Source: Halodesulfovibrio sp. MK-HDV
GTDB taxonomy: Bacteria; Desulfobacterota; Desulfovibrionia; Desulfovibrionales; Desulfovibrionaceae
Assembly: GCF_009914765.1 (NCBI RefSeq)
Contig: NZ_WYDS01000006.1
Span: 124,001-188,000 of the forward strand
DNA length: 64,000 bases
Reading direction: 5' to 3'
Shown here: positions 1,180 to 50,507 of the stretch, one piece after another
Position numbering within the stretch: the stretch's first letter is position 1
Layout: each line of letters starts with the position of its first letter
Notes under the pieces: model-generated
The model's input: the letters and a program-made list of their open reading frames with translations, nothing else
What the model was told of the DNA's origin: nothing
Databases searched by the model: none
Position numbers and translations under genes: made by a program

Positions 1180-2871
1180 CTAACGCCAGCAAAGCGTGGA
1201 TCTCGCGTTGTTAAAGTCAGTAATGATCATGGTTGCAAGTTCCTCAGGAGTAGGAACTACGTGCATGGATGATCCGAGTTGATCCTTTACACCATCGTAC
1301 AGAAAATGCTGAACATTTTCTGCCTGCTCTAATACAGGAGGAGTGAAGTGATAGGTGTCAAAGCCTGACATGCGGAATGCGAGTGTTGCGCCAAGTCCTT
1401 CTTCATGAGGCCATTCTGGAATGACAGCAGCAAAAGGAAGATCTTTCATTTTATGACCGGCATATTTAGCAATCTCTCTAAAGGTTGCCAAAGGCTGTGC
1501 GACATCAGTGCCTTCGCCAAAGTGCCATACCGGCGGCATGGTTGCATCAAGGAAGAGCTGAAGCATATCGCCGCATTTTTCGCGTGCTTTACTGGAGCAG
1601 AAACCCTGAATTGCCATAGAGAAGGCAGGGTCGCCGTTTGCGAAAACCAGCACGTTATTTTCAAGCAAGGTATTCACGAATGTAGCAAGATTTTTTGCAG
1701 ATTCAGCGTCGGCAGGAGAACCGCCTGAAAGGCTGACGATACCTTTAATTTTTCCATTAATTACACCGGAAGCGATAACCTCTATGCACCCAAAATGCTT
1801 ATCGATTGTATCAAGGGTGAAACCTACCTGAGCGGTGATAACTTCCGCAGGAAGGACTCTTTTGATAGCACGACGGTTTTTGAAGCTTTCAATTGCACGT
1901 GTGACAATGGCTTCTGCCAAAACATCGAGTGATTCATTTGGGGCGCCAATGAATTCAGCATTGGAAAAATGACTTGATTCATTGGTTGTTACGATGGCGG
2001 TGGCATGGCAGTCGGCAATGGCTGCAATTTTAGGCTGAACCTTTTGTGTATCAGCAAGCAGCACATCAATTGCACCAGTTTCGAGAGCTATGCTGATACC
2101 GTTTGTTGTCGCGAGGGGCAGTATGACGTCCGAGGTGTCTGTGGATGGTTCATCAGTACTGCGAATTCCGTATGCTTGGATTCCGGTTGCGCCTGCTTCT
2201 TTAGCCATAGCGGTAAATTTCTCGCTTTTGGCTGTTGCGTCTACAGAAGCTGCGAGGGTTGGGATGTGTTCGTACAGAGCAATGTTGACTGTGTCTGCCT
2301 GCAATGATTCAAGATGAATTTTAGTCGTAGTGCGTTCTGCTGGACCGCAAAGACAGTCAGTAGCAAGGGAGTTTCCTGCCATACTGTTGAGTAAAAATGC
2401 ACTACCGAGGCGGAAGGATGCATTCATGCTTTTTTGCCAGTCTTCCTGTTTCTCGTCTGCGGTTTGCTTCGGTGTGGTGGAAACTTCACATGATGAGCTG
2501 ACAGGCAGCAGATCAAGTTTTCGCCACAGCTGAATTCGTTCAGGCGGGGCAACCACACTAAGGGTGGAGCAGGCGCTTGACTCTGTGCAGCTAAGATCAT
2601 TAAGCAGTGCGTCCGCAAGTTCAGCAGCAATGGCGTTTGTTTCTTTACCGTTGGTGCTGATGTCGAACTCGACTGCAATTTTACGCAGTTTTCTTTCACC
2701 GACAATGGAAAGAGTTGTGTCATCTTCCGCAGCTTTTTTCAGGGTAAGAATGATCTCTCGAGTTCGTGCTTCATGGGCAGCAACGTCTTTTGCCGCAGAG
2801 CGGAGTAAATCGCTGGCAGCTTTATTGTTGGCAGAATCACAGTCGTTATGGATATGGCTTTCTGTTTTCAT
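1180..2871 (-). CDS. CO-dehydrogenase (CooS)-like protein lacking the metal-cluster cysteines
   Basis: A 563-residue homologue of the catalytic subunit of anaerobic Ni-CO dehydrogenase. The match is clear over most of its length: an EARTREIILTLKKA helix, AAELADALL, ALYEHIPTLA, EAGATGIQAYGI, ETGAIDVLLADTQ, CGDMLQLFLDA, PPVWHFGE and VIPEWPHEEG all fall in the CooS order. It lacks the N-terminal ~70-80 residues that bind clusters B and D. At the positions of the C-cluster cysteines it shows S238, K277, G384, D414 and G454; only the C-cluster histidine appears kept (H202 in EHIP). It therefore should not bind the NiFeS cluster or oxidise CO. The start has a good ribosome site (AAGGATC). The frame is intact with no stops, so it is not an obvious pseudogene. 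A structural, sensory or regulatory role is inference. Confidence 0.75.
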   Translation of the reverse strand: MKTESHIHNDCDSANNKAASDLLRSAAKDVAAHEARTREIILTLKKAAEDDTTLSIVGERKLRKIAVEFDISTNGKETNAIAAELADALLNDLSCTESSACSTLSVVAPPERIQLWRKLDLLPVSSSCEVSTTPKQTADEKQEDWQKSMNASFRLGSAFLLNSMAGNSLATDCLCGPAERTTTKIHLESLQADTVNIALYEHIPTLAASVDATAKSEKFTAMAKEAGATGIQAYGIRSTDEPSTDTSDVILPLATTNGISIALETGAIDVLLADTQKVQPKIAAIADCHATAIVTTNESSHFSNAEFIGAPNESLDVLAEAIVTRAIESFKNRRAIKRVLPAEVITAQVGFTLDTIDKHFGCIEVIASGVINGKIKGIVSLSGGSPADAESAKNLATFVNTLLENNVLVFANGDPAFSMAIQGFCSSKAREKCGDMLQLFLDATMPPVWHFGEGTDVAQPLATFREIAKYAGHKMKDLPFAAVIPEWPHEEGLGATLAFRMSGFDTYHFTPPVLEQAENVQHFLYDGVKDQLGSSMHVVPTPEELATMIITDFNNARSTLCWR

Positions 2872-2989: not shown

Positions 2990-3005
2990 AGCAAGAGATG
3001 AACCA
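2990..3005 (-). promoter_or_regulatory. Candidate sigma-54 (-24/-12) promoter of the CooS-like gene
   Basis: Read on the minus strand the site is TGGTTCATCTCTTGCT. It has the invariant GG and GC doublets exactly 10 nt apart and the TTGCT -12 block, but a poor match to the CAC part of the -24 block. It lies about 120 bp upstream of the ATG and fits the presence of a sigma-54 activator downstream. Confidence 0.5.
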
Positions 3006-3069
3006 AAAGTTCTCAGTACCTATCTTCCTAAAATAATGTGATTAAATTTTTTGACATTAACTCTCTCCA

Positions 3070-3122
3070 ACGGGATTCCGTGATTAGAACGGGATTCCGT
3101 TGTTTCGCTAGCGAAATTCCGT
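3070..3122. promoter_or_regulatory. Three repeated ACGG-N4-CCGT-type palindromes, probable activator binding sites
   Basis: ACGGGATTCCGT occurs at 3070-3081 and again at 3089-3100; a third, diverged copy (GCGAAATTCCGT) is at 3111-3122. Start-to-start spacings are 19 and 22 bp, near two helical turns, which would place the copies on one DNA face. They lie 65-130 bp upstream of the candidate -24/-12 promoter, the usual place for enhancer sites of a sigma-54 activator. Confidence 0.5.
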
Positions 3123-9122: not shown

Positions 9123-9199
9123 TGGTGGGGATGGGAAGATTCGAACTCCCGACCAACTGGTTCGTAGCCAGCTACTCTATCCAACTGAGCTACATCCCC
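9123..9199 (-). tRNA. tRNA-Arg (ACG), copy 1
   Basis: A 77-nt cloverleaf on the minus strand: acceptor GGGGATG/CATCCCC, D arm, anticodon arm GCTGG-CTACGAA-CCAGT with anticodon ACG, T arm with GTTCGAAT, and an encoded CCA. It should read CGU, CGC and CGA after A34-to-inosine editing. It has its own promoter and terminator. Confidence 0.97.
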
Positions 9200-9213
9200 T
9201 CAGTGCGAAAAAA

Positions 9214-9242
9214 GGTATATGTCTGTAAGCCGTGATCGTCAA
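9214..9242 (-). promoter_or_regulatory. Promoter of tRNA-Arg copy 1
   Basis: Minus-strand TTGACG (-35) and TATACC (-10) with an exact 17-bp spacer, immediately upstream of the tRNA. Confidence 0.8.
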
Positions 9243-9711
9243 GCACTTTATAAAAAAAATGCAGGTAAAGTTCTCCATCAAACAGCTGAGTATTTCTTCA
9301 GTCCTCGAAATGGATCAATCCAGCTAATTAGTCAGCATACAGTATGCCGTTCTCATCGGAATTGGGTAATGATTACCTGTTCAGCGGTTGTACTGCTTGA
9401 TGTCACTGTAAAAAATAATCGGAAAAAGGCTGACGATGAATGTAGTACCTTTTTATTTCTCAAATTGTGTTTCGCACTAGATAAATATTTTGTTTCAGTG
9501 AGATAGCCAGTTGTATTTATTTTCAGAGTGTATCAGCTTGGTAATTACAGGCTGGAAAGATGATTTACAGCGGCGTTAGTCTCATTTCGCATATGCTTTT
9601 ATTGGCTTAAACTGACCTCTATTGTTCTTGCATGGAACCATAGAGGTTGGACAATATGTGCATTTTTAATGCACGCCGTTTTTTAATGAATGCTAACCGT
9701 TGAGGGAAGAT
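9243..9711. other. Intergenic stretch, no gene recognised
   Basis: About 470 bp of AT-rich DNA between the promoter of tRNA copy 1 and the amidinotransferase gene. No convincing coding frame or RNA structure was seen; the promoter of the downstream gene should lie near its end. Confidence 0.4.
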
Positions 9712-10854
9712 ATGAGTAATGCGACAAACAACAATACGATGAGTAACACATATCCGCGCCGCGATTTTTGCAAAAAGACTGTAATTGCCGCGGCAGTAAC
9801 AGCTTCTGGCTATAATTTTGTTAATTCCGGTATAAAAGCTCATGCGGCGACCCCTAGTAAGGTGGGCACAAACAAGGTGTCAGTTCATTACGAATGGGGG
9901 ACATTAAAAGAGGTTGTGTGTGGCATACCTAATTTTCGTATCCCCATAGAGCTACCGGATGCCGTCTACAAATATGCTCCCTCTGAAGGGCTTAAGTTTC
10001 TAGAAGCTAATCTTGGGAAAAACCTCAAAGAAGCTGATCCAGGTGTTCATAAAATTATTTCTGATCAGATGGATGGTGCAGTTAAAATTTTGGAAGAACG
10101 TGGAATAAAGGTGCATCGGCTCAAAGAAGTTACTGATGATGAAAATGCATATTTATCCAGAATTTTTCCGCCAAGTGTTGTGCAGTTTTTTCCGCGAGAT
10201 CCGATGCTTGTCATCGGAAACAAGTTTATTGAAACAGAGCTTTTTTTCCCTTTAAGGCGTCGAGAACGGTTTGGTGTCCGGCGTACCTTAGCTAAGAGAC
10301 TGGCTGATAGTGATGCACAGATTGTTTCCGTTCCCTTAGCTGACCCTGTTCAAGAACAGCAGGATGGTTCATGGGGAGCAGGGCCATTTCTTGAAGGTGG
10401 AGATGTCTTTCTTCTCGGTAAAGATATTTATGTAGGCAACACCGGGAACGCAAGTAACACAGCAGGTGTGCAGTGGTTAGCACAGTATCTCGGCGACAGT
10501 TATAATGTTCACGAAATCAAGTTATCCAACAAATTTCTGCACCTTGACTGCTGTCTTGCAACACCTAGACATGGTTTAGCCATTGTGTGTCGAGAAGCGT
10601 TTATTGATGGCCTGCCCGAATTTTTGAATGGATGGGACCTTATTGATGTTCCAATGAAAGACGCCAAAGAAAAGCTTGCTTGTAACGGGTTGGTTCTCGA
10701 TAAAAAAACTATCCTAATTGCATCAGGACTCGATTATCTTGCAAAGGGGCTTCGTGAAGCAGGGCAGGTGGTTATTGAAACACCGTTCGATGCTGTATAT
10801 CAATATGCCGGTGCATTTAGATGCTGGCATCATCCGCTCATCCGTGAGTCTTAG
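9712..10854 (+). CDS. Tat-exported amidinotransferase-family protein (guanidino-group enzyme)
   Basis: A 380-residue protein of the amidinotransferase/arginine-deiminase fold, resembling glycine amidinotransferase. Family landmarks: FFPRDPMLVIGN (161-164 PRDP), the EGGDVFLLGKDIYVG block (EGGD 228-231, catalytic acid region), HLDCCLATPRHG (catalytic His near 277) and a nucleophile-like Cys371 in AFRCWHHPLIR, matching the HCW motif of amidinotransferases. The N-terminus is a twin-arginine signal: RRDFCKK at residues 16-22, an Ala-rich hydrophobic stretch, then AHA near 45, so the folded enzyme should reach the periplasm. The ATG at 9712 has GAGGGA at good spacing; an in-frame TTG at 9700 is less likely. 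The substrate (an arginine-like guanidine) and its acceptor are unknown. It stands alone beside tRNA genes, which says nothing about its role. Confidence 0.8.
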   Translation: MSNATNNNTMSNTYPRRDFCKKTVIAAAVTASGYNFVNSGIKAHAATPSKVGTNKVSVHYEWGTLKEVVCGIPNFRIPIELPDAVYKYAPSEGLKFLEANLGKNLKEADPGVHKIISDQMDGAVKILEERGIKVHRLKEVTDDENAYLSRIFPPSVVQFFPRDPMLVIGNKFIETELFFPLRRRERFGVRRTLAKRLADSDAQIVSVPLADPVQEQQDGSWGAGPFLEGGDVFLLGKDIYVGNTGNASNTAGVQWLAQYLGDSYNVHEIKLSNKFLHLDCCLATPRHGLAIVCREAFIDGLPEFLNGWDLIDVPMKDAKEKLACNGLVLDKKTILIASGLDYLAKGLREAGQVVIETPFDAVYQYAGAFRCWHHPLIRES

Positions 10855-10872
10855 AATTCGAGTCTTAGAATT
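10846..10872. repeat. Tandem 13-bp repeat at the end of the amidinotransferase gene
   Basis: GAGTCTTAGAATT occurs at 10846-10858 and 10860-10872; the first copy contains the stop codon. It looks like a small local duplication. Confidence 0.7.
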
Positions 10873-11314
10873 TTGGTCGAATGATTGAGTAGGGTACAGG
10901 GGGTCATAACTCAGATGCTAGGCGTTGTTTTTAGCAATTCCTCAACAGTGAAAAAATGCCAATGAGAGTTATCAGCATTTTCAATCTGACTAGAGGTGTT
11001 GTCGAGCTGAGGCACGTCTTTTTAATCTGGTTCATGGCAACATGGCAACATGGCAACATGGCAACACGAATACTGGTAACTGAGTGTAGGGTTGCATAGA
11101 GAAATGCAGCCGTGTTTTTGCTGGAAAAAGTCAATTCCCAATTGATGGGTAATAAGGCAGCGTTTCGTGCAAAAAGTACGTTAGCGCTTGGTTAGTGTTC
11201 GATTTATTTTTTTATTTGCTTAAATAAAACGTTCAGACAAGGGCTCAAAGTGGATTTTTTGGTGCGGATTGGTGACGAGGTCTTTTTAGACTTGGTGAGT
11301 AGGGGATTTTGCAT
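10873..11314. other. Intergenic stretch, no gene recognised
   Basis: Apart from the 8-bp tandem repeat listed separately, this ~440-bp stretch shows no convincing gene. A 67-codon minus-strand frame crosses the repeat but has no family resemblance. Confidence 0.4.
11033..11064. repeat. Four perfect tandem copies of an 8-bp unit
   Basis: CATGGCAA repeated four times without change. The unit length is not a multiple of three and the array is in non-coding DNA, so it is a simple-sequence tract prone to slippage. Confidence 0.9.
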
Positions 11315-11349
11315 AAAAAAAAGGCTGCTAGTTAAAAAAACTAGCAGCC
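11315..11349 (-). terminator. Intrinsic terminator of the tRNA-Arg array
   Basis: GGCTGCTAGTT pairs with AACTAGCAGCC around a five-A loop; on the minus strand it is followed by T8. It ends transcription coming through copies 6 to 2. Confidence 0.85.
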
Positions 11350-11360
11350 TATATTCTCAA

Positions 11361-11437
11361 TGGTGGGGATGGGAAGATTCGAACTCCCGACCAACTGGTT
11401 CGTAGCCAGCTACTCTATCCAACTGAGCTACATCCCC
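11361..11437 (-). tRNA. tRNA-Arg (ACG), copy 2
   Basis: Same 77-nt sequence as copy 1, with anticodon ACG and encoded CCA. It is the last gene of the tandem array and lies directly before the array terminator. Confidence 0.97.
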
Positions 11438-11717
11438 ACTTGTATTGATGCCAACCTTGCACATCGCTGCGCACCCCTAGGGCACTTGCATCCGTACGGT
11501 TCGTTACCTTACCTACGGCTTGCTGGCGTTACTTCGCAGTTCTCAAATCCTCACATATGGTTAGATATGCTTCGGTCTTGATCACTGCTCGTGCCTTGCG
11601 CTGCACAAACTTGTCTCAATCCAAATGTATATGTGTGATGAAATAAATCATCACTTGGTGAGAGCTTGGATAACTCTCATATAAAGCGTCTGCATAAACA
11701 GTCGCATATAATCAAAG

Positions 11718-11794
11718 TGGTGGGGATGGGAAGATTCGAACTCCCGACCAACTGGTTCGTAGCCAGCTACTCTATCCAACTGAGCTACATCCCC
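11718..11794 (-). tRNA. tRNA-Arg (ACG), copy 3
   Basis: Same 77-nt sequence as copy 1, within the tandem array. Confidence 0.97.
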
Positions 11795-12071
11795 ACTTCG
11801 ATTTGCTATTTTCGCGTATTGTGGCGCACCCCTAGGGCACTTGCATCCGTACGGTTCGTTACCTTACCTACGGCTTGCTGGCGTTACTTCAAAAACGTCA
11901 AACTCTCGCATATGTTAGATATGCTTCGACCTTGTCGTTTTTTCGTGCCTTGCATTACGCAAAACTATCAAAATCTCAATGTATATGTGTGATGAAATAA
12001 ATCATCACTTGCTGAGAGCTTGGATAACTCTCATATAAAGCGTCTGCATAAACAGCCGCATATAATCAAAG

Positions 12072-12148
12072 TGGTGGGGATGGGAAGATTCGAACTCCCG
12101 ACCAACTGGTTCGTAGCCAGCTACTCTATCCAACTGAGCTACATCCCC
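12072..12148 (-). tRNA. tRNA-Arg (ACG), copy 4
   Basis: Same 77-nt sequence as copy 1, within the tandem array. Confidence 0.97.
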
Positions 12149-12427
12149 ACTTCGACTTGCTATTTTTGCGTATTGCGGCGCACCCCTAGGGCACTTGCAT
12201 CCGTACGGTTCGTTACCTTACCTACGGCTTGCTGGCGTTACTTCAAAAACGTCAACCTCTCGCATATGTTAGATATGCTTCGACCTTGTCGTTTTTTCGT
12301 GCCTTGCACTACGCAAAACTATCAAAATCTCTATGTATATATGTGTGATGAATTGAACCATCACTTGGTGAGAGCTTGGATAACTCTCGTATAAAGCGTC
12401 TGCGTAAACAGCCGCATATAATCAAAG

Positions 12428-12504
12428 TGGTGGGGATGGGAAGATTCGAACTCCCGACCAACTGGTTCGTAGCCAGCTACTCTATCCAACTGAGCTACAT
12501 CCCC
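12428..12504 (-). tRNA. tRNA-Arg (ACG), copy 5
   Basis: Same 77-nt sequence as copy 1, within the tandem array. Confidence 0.97.
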
Positions 12505-12781
12505 ACTTCGATTTGCTATTTTTGCGTATTGCTGCGCACCCCTAGGGCACTTGCATCCGTACGGTTCGTTACCTCACCTACGGCTTGCTGGCGTTACTTC
12601 AAAAACGTCAAACTCTCGCATATGTTAGATATGCTTCAACCTTGTCGTTTTTTCGTGCCTTGCACTACGCAAAACTATCAAAATCTCAATGTATATGTGT
12701 GATGAAATAAACCATCACTTGGTGAAAGCTTGGATAACTCTCGTATAAAGCGTCTGCATAAACAGCCGCATATAATCAAAG

Positions 12782-12858
12782 TGGTGGGGATGGGAAGATT
12801 CGAACTCCCGACCAACTGGTTCGTAGCCAGCTACTCTATCCAACTGAGCTACATCCCC
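12782..12858 (-). tRNA. tRNA-Arg (ACG), copy 6
   Basis: Same 77-nt sequence as copy 1. It is the first gene of the array in transcription order, following the array promoter. Confidence 0.97.
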
Positions 12859-12950
12859 ACTAGATATTGATGCCTGATTTCTTCACCTCTAGGTGCTTCA
12901 ATCCGACTCAATCAAAATTTTGTGAAGTGACATTTGTCACAGCGAGAGGG

Positions 12951-12979
12951 GGTATATGTTCAACCCTCTGCAAGGTCAA
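12951..12979 (-). promoter_or_regulatory. Promoter of the tRNA-Arg array
   Basis: Minus-strand TTGACC (-35) and TATACC (-10) with a 17-bp spacer, followed by a C-rich discriminator of the kind seen at growth-rate-controlled stable-RNA promoters. Confidence 0.8.
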
Positions 12980-13062
12980 GTGCTTTTTAAAAAAAAGTTT
13001 TTTTTCTAAAAACGGCTGACTCTGTGTTGTTAGCTTTGCTTGTTTTTCTTTGGAAGAAAAAG

Positions 13063-13087
13063 GCCTGTCAGAAAAAAACTGACAGGC
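13063..13087 (-). terminator. Intrinsic terminator of tRNA-Arg copy 7
   Basis: GCCTGTCAG pairs with CTGACAGGC around an A-rich loop; on the minus strand a T-rich stretch follows. Confidence 0.85.
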
Positions 13088-13099
13088 TTTATAAGCAAA

Positions 13100-13176
13100 T
13101 GGTGGGGATGGGAAGATTCGAACTCCCGACCAACTGGTTCGTAGCCAGCTACTCTATCCAACTGAGCTACATCCCC
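13100..13176 (-). tRNA. tRNA-Arg (ACG), copy 7
   Basis: Same 77-nt sequence as copy 1, but outside the array, with a different spacer and its own promoter and terminator. Confidence 0.97.
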
Positions 13177-46142: not shown

Positions 46143-47144
46143 ATGAATCTCGCTAAATTTGCACGTCGTGGCTATGTTTCTTCCGCAACTCCACTCGAAG
46201 CTGCTCCTGCTTTTTCAAAAGCATTGGGCGGTAAAGTAAACGTATTTATCAAACGTGATGACCTCCTCCCAGGTACATCCGGTGGTAACAAAACACGTAA
46301 GCTTGATTTTAGCATGGCCGATGCTATCGAAAAAGGCGCTGACACTATCATTACTTGTGGTGCTGTTCAGTCTAACCATTGCCGTCTTACACTCGCTTGG
46401 GCTGTTAAAGAAGGCATGGATTGTCACCTTATTCTCGAAGAACGCGTAAAAGGCAGCTACAAACCAGAAGGTTCCGGTAACAACTTCCTCTTCAACATCC
46501 TTGGTGTTAAGAGCACAACCGTTGTTTCCGGTGGCTCTGACATGATGGGCGAAATGGAAAAACTTGCTGCAACTCTTACTGCAGAAGGCAAAAAGCCGTA
46601 CATCATTCCTGGTGGCGCTTCTAACTCCATCGGCGCACTCGGCTACGTTTCTTGTGCTGAAGAAATGCTTCAGCAGTTCTTCGAAATGAAACTTAAAGTT
46701 GATCACGTTGTTGTTCCTTCCGGTAGCGCTGGTACCCACGCAGGTATGGCTATTGGTATGTACGCAAACAACTCCGGTATCCCAGTTTCCGGTATCAACG
46801 TAAGCCGTCCAAAAGATGTTCAGGAAGCACACGTTTACAAGCTTGTTGAAGAAACCGTAGCACTTATTGGCGACATCAAGTGTGACGTTCCTAGCTCCGT
46901 AATCGAATGTTTCGATTCTTATGTTGGACCAGGCTACTCCCTCCCTACTGATTCCATGATCGAAGCTGTTAAATTGCTTGCTCAGACTGAAGGTATCCTT
47001 CTTGATCCAGTTTACTCTGGTAAAGCAATGGCTGGCCTCATTGACCTCGTTCGTAAAGGTCATTTCCCAGAAGGTTCTAACGTAGTATTCCTGCACACTG
47101 GTGGCTCACCAGCTTTGTACGCGTACCTCGATACCTTCAAATAG
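46143..47144 (+). CDS. dcyD: D-cysteine desulfhydrase / cysteate sulfo-lyase-like PLP enzyme, copy 1
   Basis: A 333-residue fold-type II PLP enzyme of the ACC-deaminase/D-cysteine desulfhydrase family. It carries FIKRDDLLPGTSGGNKTRKL (PLP lysine in GGNKTRKL), GAVQSNHCRLT, PYIIPGGASNSIGALGYV, PSGSAGTHAGMAIGM and LDPVYSGKAMAGLIDLVRKG, then FLHTGGSPALYAY. The reaction would eliminate the sulfur group (sulfide from D-cysteine, or sulfite from L-cysteate) to give pyruvate and ammonia via 2-aminoacrylate. I cannot separate the two by eye. It is nearly identical to copy 2 (four differences seen). It follows a dead ridA behind a conserved promoter. Confidence 0.88.
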   Translation: MNLAKFARRGYVSSATPLEAAPAFSKALGGKVNVFIKRDDLLPGTSGGNKTRKLDFSMADAIEKGADTIITCGAVQSNHCRLTLAWAVKEGMDCHLILEERVKGSYKPEGSGNNFLFNILGVKSTTVVSGGSDMMGEMEKLAATLTAEGKKPYIIPGGASNSIGALGYVSCAEEMLQQFFEMKLKVDHVVVPSGSAGTHAGMAIGMYANNSGIPVSGINVSRPKDVQEAHVYKLVEETVALIGDIKCDVPSSVIECFDSYVGPGYSLPTDSMIEAVKLLAQTEGILLDPVYSGKAMAGLIDLVRKGHFPEGSNVVFLHTGGSPALYAYLDTFK

Positions 47145-49505: not shown

Positions 49506-50507
49506 ATGAACCTCGCAAAATTTGCTCGTCGTGGCTATGTTTCTTCCGCAACTCCGCTCGAAGCTGTTCCTGCTTTTTCAAAAGCACTCGGCGGTAAAGT
49601 AAACGTATTTATCAAACGTGATGACCTCCTCCCAGGTACATCCGGTGGTAACAAAACACGTAAGCTTGACTTTAGCATGGCTGATGCTATCGAACAGGGC
49701 GCTGACACTATCATTACTTGTGGTGCTGTTCAGTCTAACCATTGCCGTCTTACCCTCGCTTGGGCTGTTAAAGAAGGCATGGATTGTCACCTTATTCTCG
49801 AAGAACGCGTAAAAGGCAGCTACAAACCAGAAGGTTCCGGTAACAACTTCCTCTTCAACATCCTTGGTGTTAAGAGCACAACCGTTGTTTCCGGTGGCTC
49901 TGATATGATGCGCGAAATGGAAAAACTCGCTGCAACTCTTACTGCAGAAGGTAAAAAGCCGTACATCATTCCTGGTGGCGCATCTAACTCCATCGGCGCA
50001 CTCGGCTACGTTTCTTGTGCTGAAGAACTCCTTCAGCAGTTCTTCGAAATGAAACTTAAAGTTGATCACGTTGTTGTTCCTTCCGGTAGCGCTGGTACCC
50101 ATGCAGGTATGGCTATTGGTATGTACGCAAACAACTCCGGTATCCCAGTTTCCGGTATCAACGTAAGCCGTCCAAAAGACGTTCAGGAAGCACACGTTTA
50201 CAAGCTTGTTGAAGAAACCGTAGCACTTATTGGTGACATCAAGTGTGACGTGCCTAGCTCTGTAATCGAATGCTTTGATTCTTATGTTGGACCTGGCTAC
50301 TCCCTCCCAACAGATTCTATGATCGAAGCTGTTAAATTGCTTGCACAGACAGAAGGTATCCTTCTTGACCCTGTATACTCCGGTAAAGCAATGGCTGGTC
50401 TCATCGACCTCGTTCGTAAAGGCCATTTCCCTGAAGGTTCAAACGTAGTATTCTTGCACACTGGTGGCTCACCAGCGCTGTACGCTTACCTCGATACCTT
50501 CAAATAG
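49506..50507 (+). CDS. dcyD: D-cysteine desulfhydrase / cysteate sulfo-lyase-like PLP enzyme, copy 2
   Basis: A 333-residue near-twin of copy 1. Reading the two translations, I see only four differences: Ala/Val in EA-APAF against EA-VPAF, Lys/Gln in AIEKG/AIEQG, Gly/Arg in MMGEM/MMREM and Met/Leu in EEMLQ/EELLQ. None lies in a PLP motif. It is expressed with an intact ridA and lies directly before the TRAP transporter genes, so it is probably the main catabolic copy. Function as for copy 1. Confidence 0.88.
   Translation: MNLAKFARRGYVSSATPLEAVPAFSKALGGKVNVFIKRDDLLPGTSGGNKTRKLDFSMADAIEQGADTIITCGAVQSNHCRLTLAWAVKEGMDCHLILEERVKGSYKPEGSGNNFLFNILGVKSTTVVSGGSDMMREMEKLAATLTAEGKKPYIIPGGASNSIGALGYVSCAEELLQQFFEMKLKVDHVVVPSGSAGTHAGMAIGMYANNSGIPVSGINVSRPKDVQEAHVYKLVEETVALIGDIKCDVPSSVIECFDSYVGPGYSLPTDSMIEAVKLLAQTEGILLDPVYSGKAMAGLIDLVRKGHFPEGSNVVFLHTGGSPALYAYLDTFK

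Follow-up and report, generated by a model that had tools for sequence, protein, structure and literature searches.

A carbon monoxide dehydrogenase-like protein of clade B-1 descent that has lost nearly all its metal-cluster ligands in Halodesulfovibrio, possibly a maintained pseudoenzyme

Introduction

Within clade B of the carbon monoxide dehydrogenases (CODHs), group B-1 is characterized, in the available part of the survey, by a His-rich N-terminus and an Asp or Glu at the second C-cluster Cys, the other ligands being kept (PMC6344411). The accessible passages of two further papers present clade B as being without biochemistry and call its function unknown (PMC13056359, PMC13240472). In group D-1 one C-cluster Cys is changed to Glu and the others are kept, as far as the excerpted survey text goes (PMC6344411). 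The clade D protein ChCODH-V is reported, in the passages at hand, not to interconvert CO and CO2 (PMC13056359). Mini-CooS, of clade G, is described in part of its report as a small and divergent CODH-like protein (PMC8776680), and the hybrid cluster proteins (HCPs) have a related fold (PMC10502027).

The present analysis concerns a gene for a CODH-like protein in the window, the whole 64-kb stretch of Halodesulfovibrio DNA that was studied. In sequence and in the tree the window protein is nearest to the intact proteins of group B-1 (PMC6344411), with 49–51% identity to the best intact rows, and it has the C-terminal CWR, C425 and C433 in common with the near intact B-1 rows. Unlike these, it has no His-rich N-terminus and no B/D-cluster or C-cluster cysteines, and the position of the catalytic Lys is taken by Glu (E491). 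It is also comparable to ChCODH-V, as a protein of apparently CODH-like fold, and to mini-CooS, in being small and divergent, but ChCODH-V retains an active site with iron, sulfur and oxygen (PMC13056359) and mini-CooS is described with a complete metal-cluster motif (PMC8776680), in both cases in the portions of text available. The HCPs hold Fe-S-O clusters, whereas the window protein gives no match to the HCP profile TIGR01703 at E≤1. Proteins of the window type would be left out of the two surveys by their filters, since one excluded any sequence with a deletion in a cluster region (PMC6344411) and the other also those with altered cysteines of the B-cluster and of the C-terminal part of the C-cluster (PMC8776680), as stated in the accessible parts of both. 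In the literature covered (titles, beginnings of abstracts and passages, with few subscription papers) no description of cluster-free CODH-fold proteins was found.

Reading frame and metal-site residues

The gene (Table 1) is uninterrupted over 563 codons from its ATG start to its stop and is preceded by a putative ribosome-binding site, as originally predicted. The protein belongs to the Pfam Prismane family (PF03063; 237.2 bits, gathering cut-off 27). Its score of 245.4 bits against NCBIfam TIGR01702, the anaerobic CODH catalytic subunit, lies below the equivalog cut-off of 478; two intact B-1 proteins score 480 and 483, the CooS of the same genome 681, and the five other eroded proteins described below 184–337.

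Table 1. Positions of the features discussed, in window coordinates
Feature	Position	Strand	Remarks
GAF and AAA sigma-54-dependent activator	2–973	−	cut by window edge; whole protein 537 aa, L041:5361–6974
Eroded clade-B CODH-like gene, 563 aa	1180–2871	−	profile and phmmer matches, alignment, model
Putative ribosome-binding site AAAAGGA	2879–2885	−	read off sequence, 7 bases upstream of ATG
Sigma-54-like −24/−12 site, TGGTTCATCTCTTGCT	2990–3005	−	134 bases before start codon
UAS-like palindrome copy 1, AACGGAATTCCGTT type	3069–3082		
UAS-like palindrome copy 2	3088–3101		
UAS-like palindrome copy 3	3109–3122		half degenerate
Seven tRNA-Arg (ACG) genes	9123–13176	−	
333-aa gene, first copy	46143–47144	+	
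333-aa gene, second copy	49506–50507	+	

A phmmer alignment pairs residues 14–562 of the window protein with residues 81–630 of the Thermococcus CODH 6t7j (193 bits). Because the alignment begins only at CODH residue 81, the D- and B-cluster segment, with its cysteines, is absent; the alignment of rows agrees, and the loss of this region, which had been proposed from the sequence, is borne out. When the window protein is aligned with 27 intact rows, of which 25 are distinct (two pairs being identical over the tree columns), its C-cluster columns read H202, S238, K277, G384, D414 and G454, in place of the His and four to five Cys of the TIGR01702 type. The CODH ligand numbering behind these columns is the one we take to apply. 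The original prediction had named the same six residues, with H202 as the one kept, and had considered the other five as former cysteines. That is correct for S238, G384, D414 and G454. K277 replaced an acid and not a Cys, since the second C-cluster Cys was already Asp or Glu in the B-1 lineage; in the near intact relatives the residue at this position is Glu. The acid-base His is retained (H33). Cysteines at shifted positions were also considered and rejected, as none fills a C-cluster Cys column of the 33-row alignment.

Homologues in which some or all of these ligands are gone do exist, and the loss is graded. In the order His, Cys1, site 2, Cys3, Cys4, Cys5, the six eroded proteins read H,S,K,G,D,G in the window genome (G000), H,S,K,S,Y,C in G001, H,S,K,D,K,A in G006, E,K,H,C,C,C in G009, V,P,L,C,C,C in G131 and C,S,N,C,C,C in G039. 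The B-cluster motif is partly left in G131 and gone in G000, G001, G006 and G009, and the N-terminus of G039 is scrambled. None of the four Halodesulfovibrio rows retains the B/D region, Cys1 or the acid at site 2. Beyond this, G009 has lost the His and retained three Cys, whereas the window group has retained the His and lost Cys; the loss of opposite ligands points to differing routes after common first steps. Seventy-five positions are identical across all six eroded proteins. These rows suggest that the frame continued to matter after the ligands had ceased to. The ligand alignment was made without G318, G331, G315 and the second G022 copy, and G068, with an in-frame TGA, was left out of both the ligand comparison and the tree.

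Descent from group B-1 and distribution

The intact relatives, with their His-rich N-terminus, B/D cysteines and C-cluster of the form H,C,(D/E),C,C,C, fit group B-1. In the 33-row tree, the six eroded and eight intact B-1 rows form a set of 14 with support 100/100, so that the window protein branches with B-1 without showing the motif of that group (His-rich N-terminus, Asp or Glu at site 2, remaining ligands). Support for a single clade of the four Halodesulfovibrio rows is 100/98. A further branch (77/98), within B-1 near G022 and G317, has all six eroded rows on the same side. The exact joins are unsure because four of the eroded rows are long branches, with end branches of 0.9–1.9 in G131, G039, G006 and G009 against about 0.01–0.04 in near intact rows, and G131 and G039 may have arisen separately.

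A clade-B-type gene occurs in five of the ten genomes of the genus and is eroded in four of these; identities to the window protein are 73% (G001), 47% (G006), 44% (G007, intact) and 41% (G009). In the order or class, 21 of 348 genomes carry such a gene at E≤1e-65, 11 of them intact, six eroded, one interrupted by a TGA (G068) and one a 440-residue fragment (G315), with G318 and G331 outside the reading; a profile search at E≤1e-120 gives 22 (the extra one is G208). The best 80 of 430 confirmed relatives in named genomes comprise 76 with the complete ligand set, three short or split frames and a single eroded entry, L066, from Halodesulfovibrio sp. N3. No relative was confirmed among the viral contigs, and the two plasmid records reach 26–36% identity only.

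The entries G068 (L050:236–2296, minus strand) and L072 hold an otherwise complete clade-B gene with one in-frame TGA, which is either a real interruption or a sequencing error. G022 (L046), G317 and G318 each have two clade-B frames, approximately 3.5 kb apart. The ligands are intact in both G317 copies and in the G022 copy that was read, and the eroded lineage is nearest to one copy type.

Predicted structure

The structure of the window protein was predicted with AlphaFold2 from an input of 41 rows, i.e. 40 of 77 listed frames and the window protein itself, giving a pLDDT of 85.8 and a pTM of 0.87. For the control, the intact B-1 protein L065, modelling with the same 41 rows gave 84.8 and 0.88. 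All 50 PDB matches listed by Foldseek for the window model are CODHs at probability 1.00, and the structure of ChCODH-V, which presumably belongs to group D-1, is among them (PDB entry 7b7q). The superpositions of the window model have query TM-scores of 0.69–0.74 and RMSDs of 8.2–8.6 Å, against 0.87–0.90 and 2.0–2.9 Å for the control. The eroded model thus appears to consist of CODH domains in an altered relative placement, which may be real or an effect of modelling. A real displacement would be understandable, as the domains have lost the clusters and the N-terminal region by which they are tied together.

Selective constraint

Between the window gene and its counterpart in G001, dN/dS is 0.195 by the NG86 method (dS 0.87) and omega is 0.191 by maximum likelihood, with 2ΔlnL of 172 against an omega of 1. 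The gene is clearly maintained by selection in this pair, at a constraint roughly five to eight times below that of CooS and of intact B-1 proteins, for which control omegas of 0.036 (CooS of G000 and G001) and 0.024 (G132 and G142) were obtained; the adjacent activator gives 0.085 between G000 and G001, over its first 414 codons only. The dS values of the gene (0.87), the activator (0.91) and CooS (0.69) in G000 and G001 are similar, as expected if all three were inherited together. Three of the eight pairwise likelihood fits stopped at parameter bounds and were discarded (window–G006, window–G009, G022–G039); the fit of G022 and G131 (0.052) was saturated and is not relied on, and branch-wise omegas for three taxa were unstable at high divergence and were not used. 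All six eroded rows, the window frame included, are free of stops, whereas simulated neutral drift at 0.435 substitutions per site produced a mean of 13 stops per lineage, with a minimum of 3 in 300 runs. These results speak for the maintained pseudoenzyme of the original prediction. Its B-1 descent, the graded series of erosion and a fall in constraint over the whole protein had not been foreseen.

The G006 copy is a special case: it shares 47% identity with the window protein at a pS of 0.73, whereas the CooS proteins of these genomes reach 96% at a pS of 0.55. Since the copy is more diverged at synonymous sites than CooS, either faster evolution or a transfer would account for it.

The window protein retains 101 of the 152 positions that do not vary among the intact rows, i.e. 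12 of 24 within three residues of a ligand and 89 of 128 elsewhere (one-sided p=0.054). The bias of its losses towards the ligands has unadjusted one-sided p values of 0.044–0.058, the lowest being for the ligands themselves, and that of G039 an unadjusted p of 0.027. In G001, G006, G009 and G131 the losses among the same 152 positions show no clustering around ligands. Selective loss at the active site is at best marginal, in the window protein and G039; constraint fell over the whole protein, mostly without a focus on the pocket.

Activator, promoter-like site and neighbourhood

Downstream of the eroded gene, on the same strand, lies a gene for a sigma-54-dependent activator (Table 1), which may be FhlA/NorR/NifA-like, to judge from NCBIfam scores far below the cut-off and from likeness of motifs. 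The activator stands beside five of the six eroded loci, G006 being the exception, and at five of eight other loci with flanks examined (seven intact and the interrupted G068; G014, G068 and G101 are near contig ends). Relatives with 60% identity or more occur within the genus in G000, G001, G007 and G009 but not in G006, i.e. in four of the five genomes with a clade-B gene and in none of the five without one. In G001 the activator (L042:9853–11465, plus strand) is read as two overlapping frames of 414 and 123 residues, the second of which covers a portion of the AAA lid and matches an HTH weakly.

The claim that the gene has its own sigma-54 promoter and activator is right in kind, as a −24/−12-like site, palindromes and a downstream activator are all found; the score of the site itself is within chance. 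At 18.5, measured against the sigma-54 consensus, it is reached by 37 of 300 random stretches, and its −24 element deviates from that consensus. Support for the site comes instead from its conserved position, which is the same in G001 and near −138/−139 in G132, G142 and G099. Scores of at least 20 occur in seven of 300 random stretches, and sites of this strength are present in G001, G007, G022, G039, G068, G099, G131, G132 and G142. UAS-like palindromes together with a −24/−12-like site precede four of the six eroded genes (window, G001, G131 and G039), and a similar arrangement is seen in the intact G007, G022, G099, G132 and G142; at some of these loci the palindromes are weaker or different, and the start codons of G131 and G039 are uncertain. 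The upstream regions of G006 and G009 do not have the arrangement. Single palindromes number 72 in the window's own genome against 75 in the control (both strands), an equality which means that a wider regulon cannot be claimed. Among the own-genome matches listed, the only closely spaced pair is the one at the window gene.

An HPP-family membrane gene adjoins the intact gene in G007, G099, G132 and G142, and none of the six eroded loci in the stretches examined. Within the genus such a gene adjoins a clade-B gene only in G007; stronger HPP matches in G004, G005 and G009 lie elsewhere. Among the best 80 of 430 named loci, seven are flanked by relatives of both the activator and the HPP gene (Desulforhopalus L067, Desulfosporosinus L068–L071, Desulfovibrio L065 and Salidesulfovibrio L081, where the gene is split), and 62 have a relative of an NMT1-type transporter. 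Among G000 (L041), G001 (L042), G006 (L043) and G009 (L044) the chromosomal surroundings of the eroded gene, taken together with the activator where this is present, differ from species to species.

Possible roles of the protein

The analysis shows the origin of the CODH-like window protein, its ligand loss, purifying selection relative to its nearest relative and a conserved regulatory neighbourhood. A new role for the protein is possible. The explanation that we prefer, tentatively, is that of a maintained, cluster-free pseudoenzyme which, after stepwise loss of its metal sites, would now bind or regulate within its own module. A clade B-1 CODH-like gene under its own GAF/sigma-54 activator would have lost its metal sites step by step; in the Halodesulfovibrio lineage the loss probably began with the B/D region, Cys1 and the acid at site 2, and the remaining ligands would have followed by species-specific routes. 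As most of the sequence length is kept and still under selection, the selected property would need none of the clusters C, B and D. The most plausible present roles would be feedback or sensing together with the adjacent activator, or binding of the signal of the module, rather than redox catalysis. The more specific proposal, that a CODH-fold protein without clusters now serves the adjacent sigma-54 activator as a dedicated partner in feedback or sensing, with intermediates alive in sister species, is itself unlikely; if true, it would mean that a redox enzyme was turned into a regulator by stepwise ligand loss. The graded losses allow one to ask which part of a large metalloenzyme serves without metals, and they offer a handle on clade B, since eroded proteins that remain linked to this activator could help to tell the signal of the module apart from its redox chemistry.

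Several observations weigh against a maintained pseudoenzyme. The losses in G001, G006, G009 and G131 are not ligand-focused, G006 has neither activator nor promoter and its copy is strongly diverged, the G001 activator is split, the window −24 element departs from consensus and the domains of the model are displaced. The strongest rival is slow decay, in which the clade-B function is no longer needed and the gene drifts, weakly constrained, towards loss. It is a serious alternative on account of the whole-protein fall in constraint and the displaced domains (8.2 against 2.0 Å in the intact control), and it would also account for the long end branches, the presence of the gene in only half of the genus genomes, mostly in eroded form, the state of the regulatory parts in G006 and G001 and the missing HPP neighbour at the eroded loci examined. 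The omega of 0.191, with its likelihood support, speaks against it, as do six stop-free frames where about 13 stops per lineage are expected, and we consider decay a real though doubtful possibility.

Rather improbable is a repurposed pocket, in which the C-cluster cavity would have been rebuilt for another ligand, metal ion or reaction. H202 is kept, and S238, D240, K277 and H301 are common to the window protein, G001 and G006, despite the 46–47% identity of the G006 protein to the other two, and are absent from seven near intact relatives. G009, however, has none of these four residues, and other pocket positions vary (Asp, Tyr or Lys at 414; Gly, Ser or Asp at 384).

The original prediction had also suggested a partner of an active CooS. 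The window genome (4.17 Mb in 54 contigs) has two CODH-like matches, the window gene and a 629-residue CooS followed by a CooC-like gene, so that the intact cooS which had been looked for is present, and CODHs of this type are homodimers according to the available survey text (PMC6344411). A scaffold or heterodimer partner is nevertheless very improbable. All ten genus genomes have a match at the level of canonical CooS (E 1e-44 to 1e-47; read as CooS in G000, G001, G006, G007 and G009, judged by score in the other five), yet five of them are without a clade-B-type gene; the genome of the eroded G039 has no other CODH match at E≤1e-30. The N-terminal region bearing the D-cluster cysteines is also lost in the window protein. 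That the protein is still an active CODH or an HCP-like enzyme by means of cysteines elsewhere is hardly credible, for although it has 11 Cys, of which C425, C433 and C561 are present in all six eroded rows, these three are found also in the intact near relatives besides their cluster cysteines, and the C-cluster Cys columns hold no Cys.

Other features of the window

The seven tRNA-Arg (ACG) genes of the window are identical, and four of them begin successive tandem units of 354–357 bp, three of which are about 96–97% alike and the fourth 85–88% (matching-block ratio). The two 333-residue genes, 3.4 kb apart, differ at two places in their first 70 residues, and look like a recent duplication.
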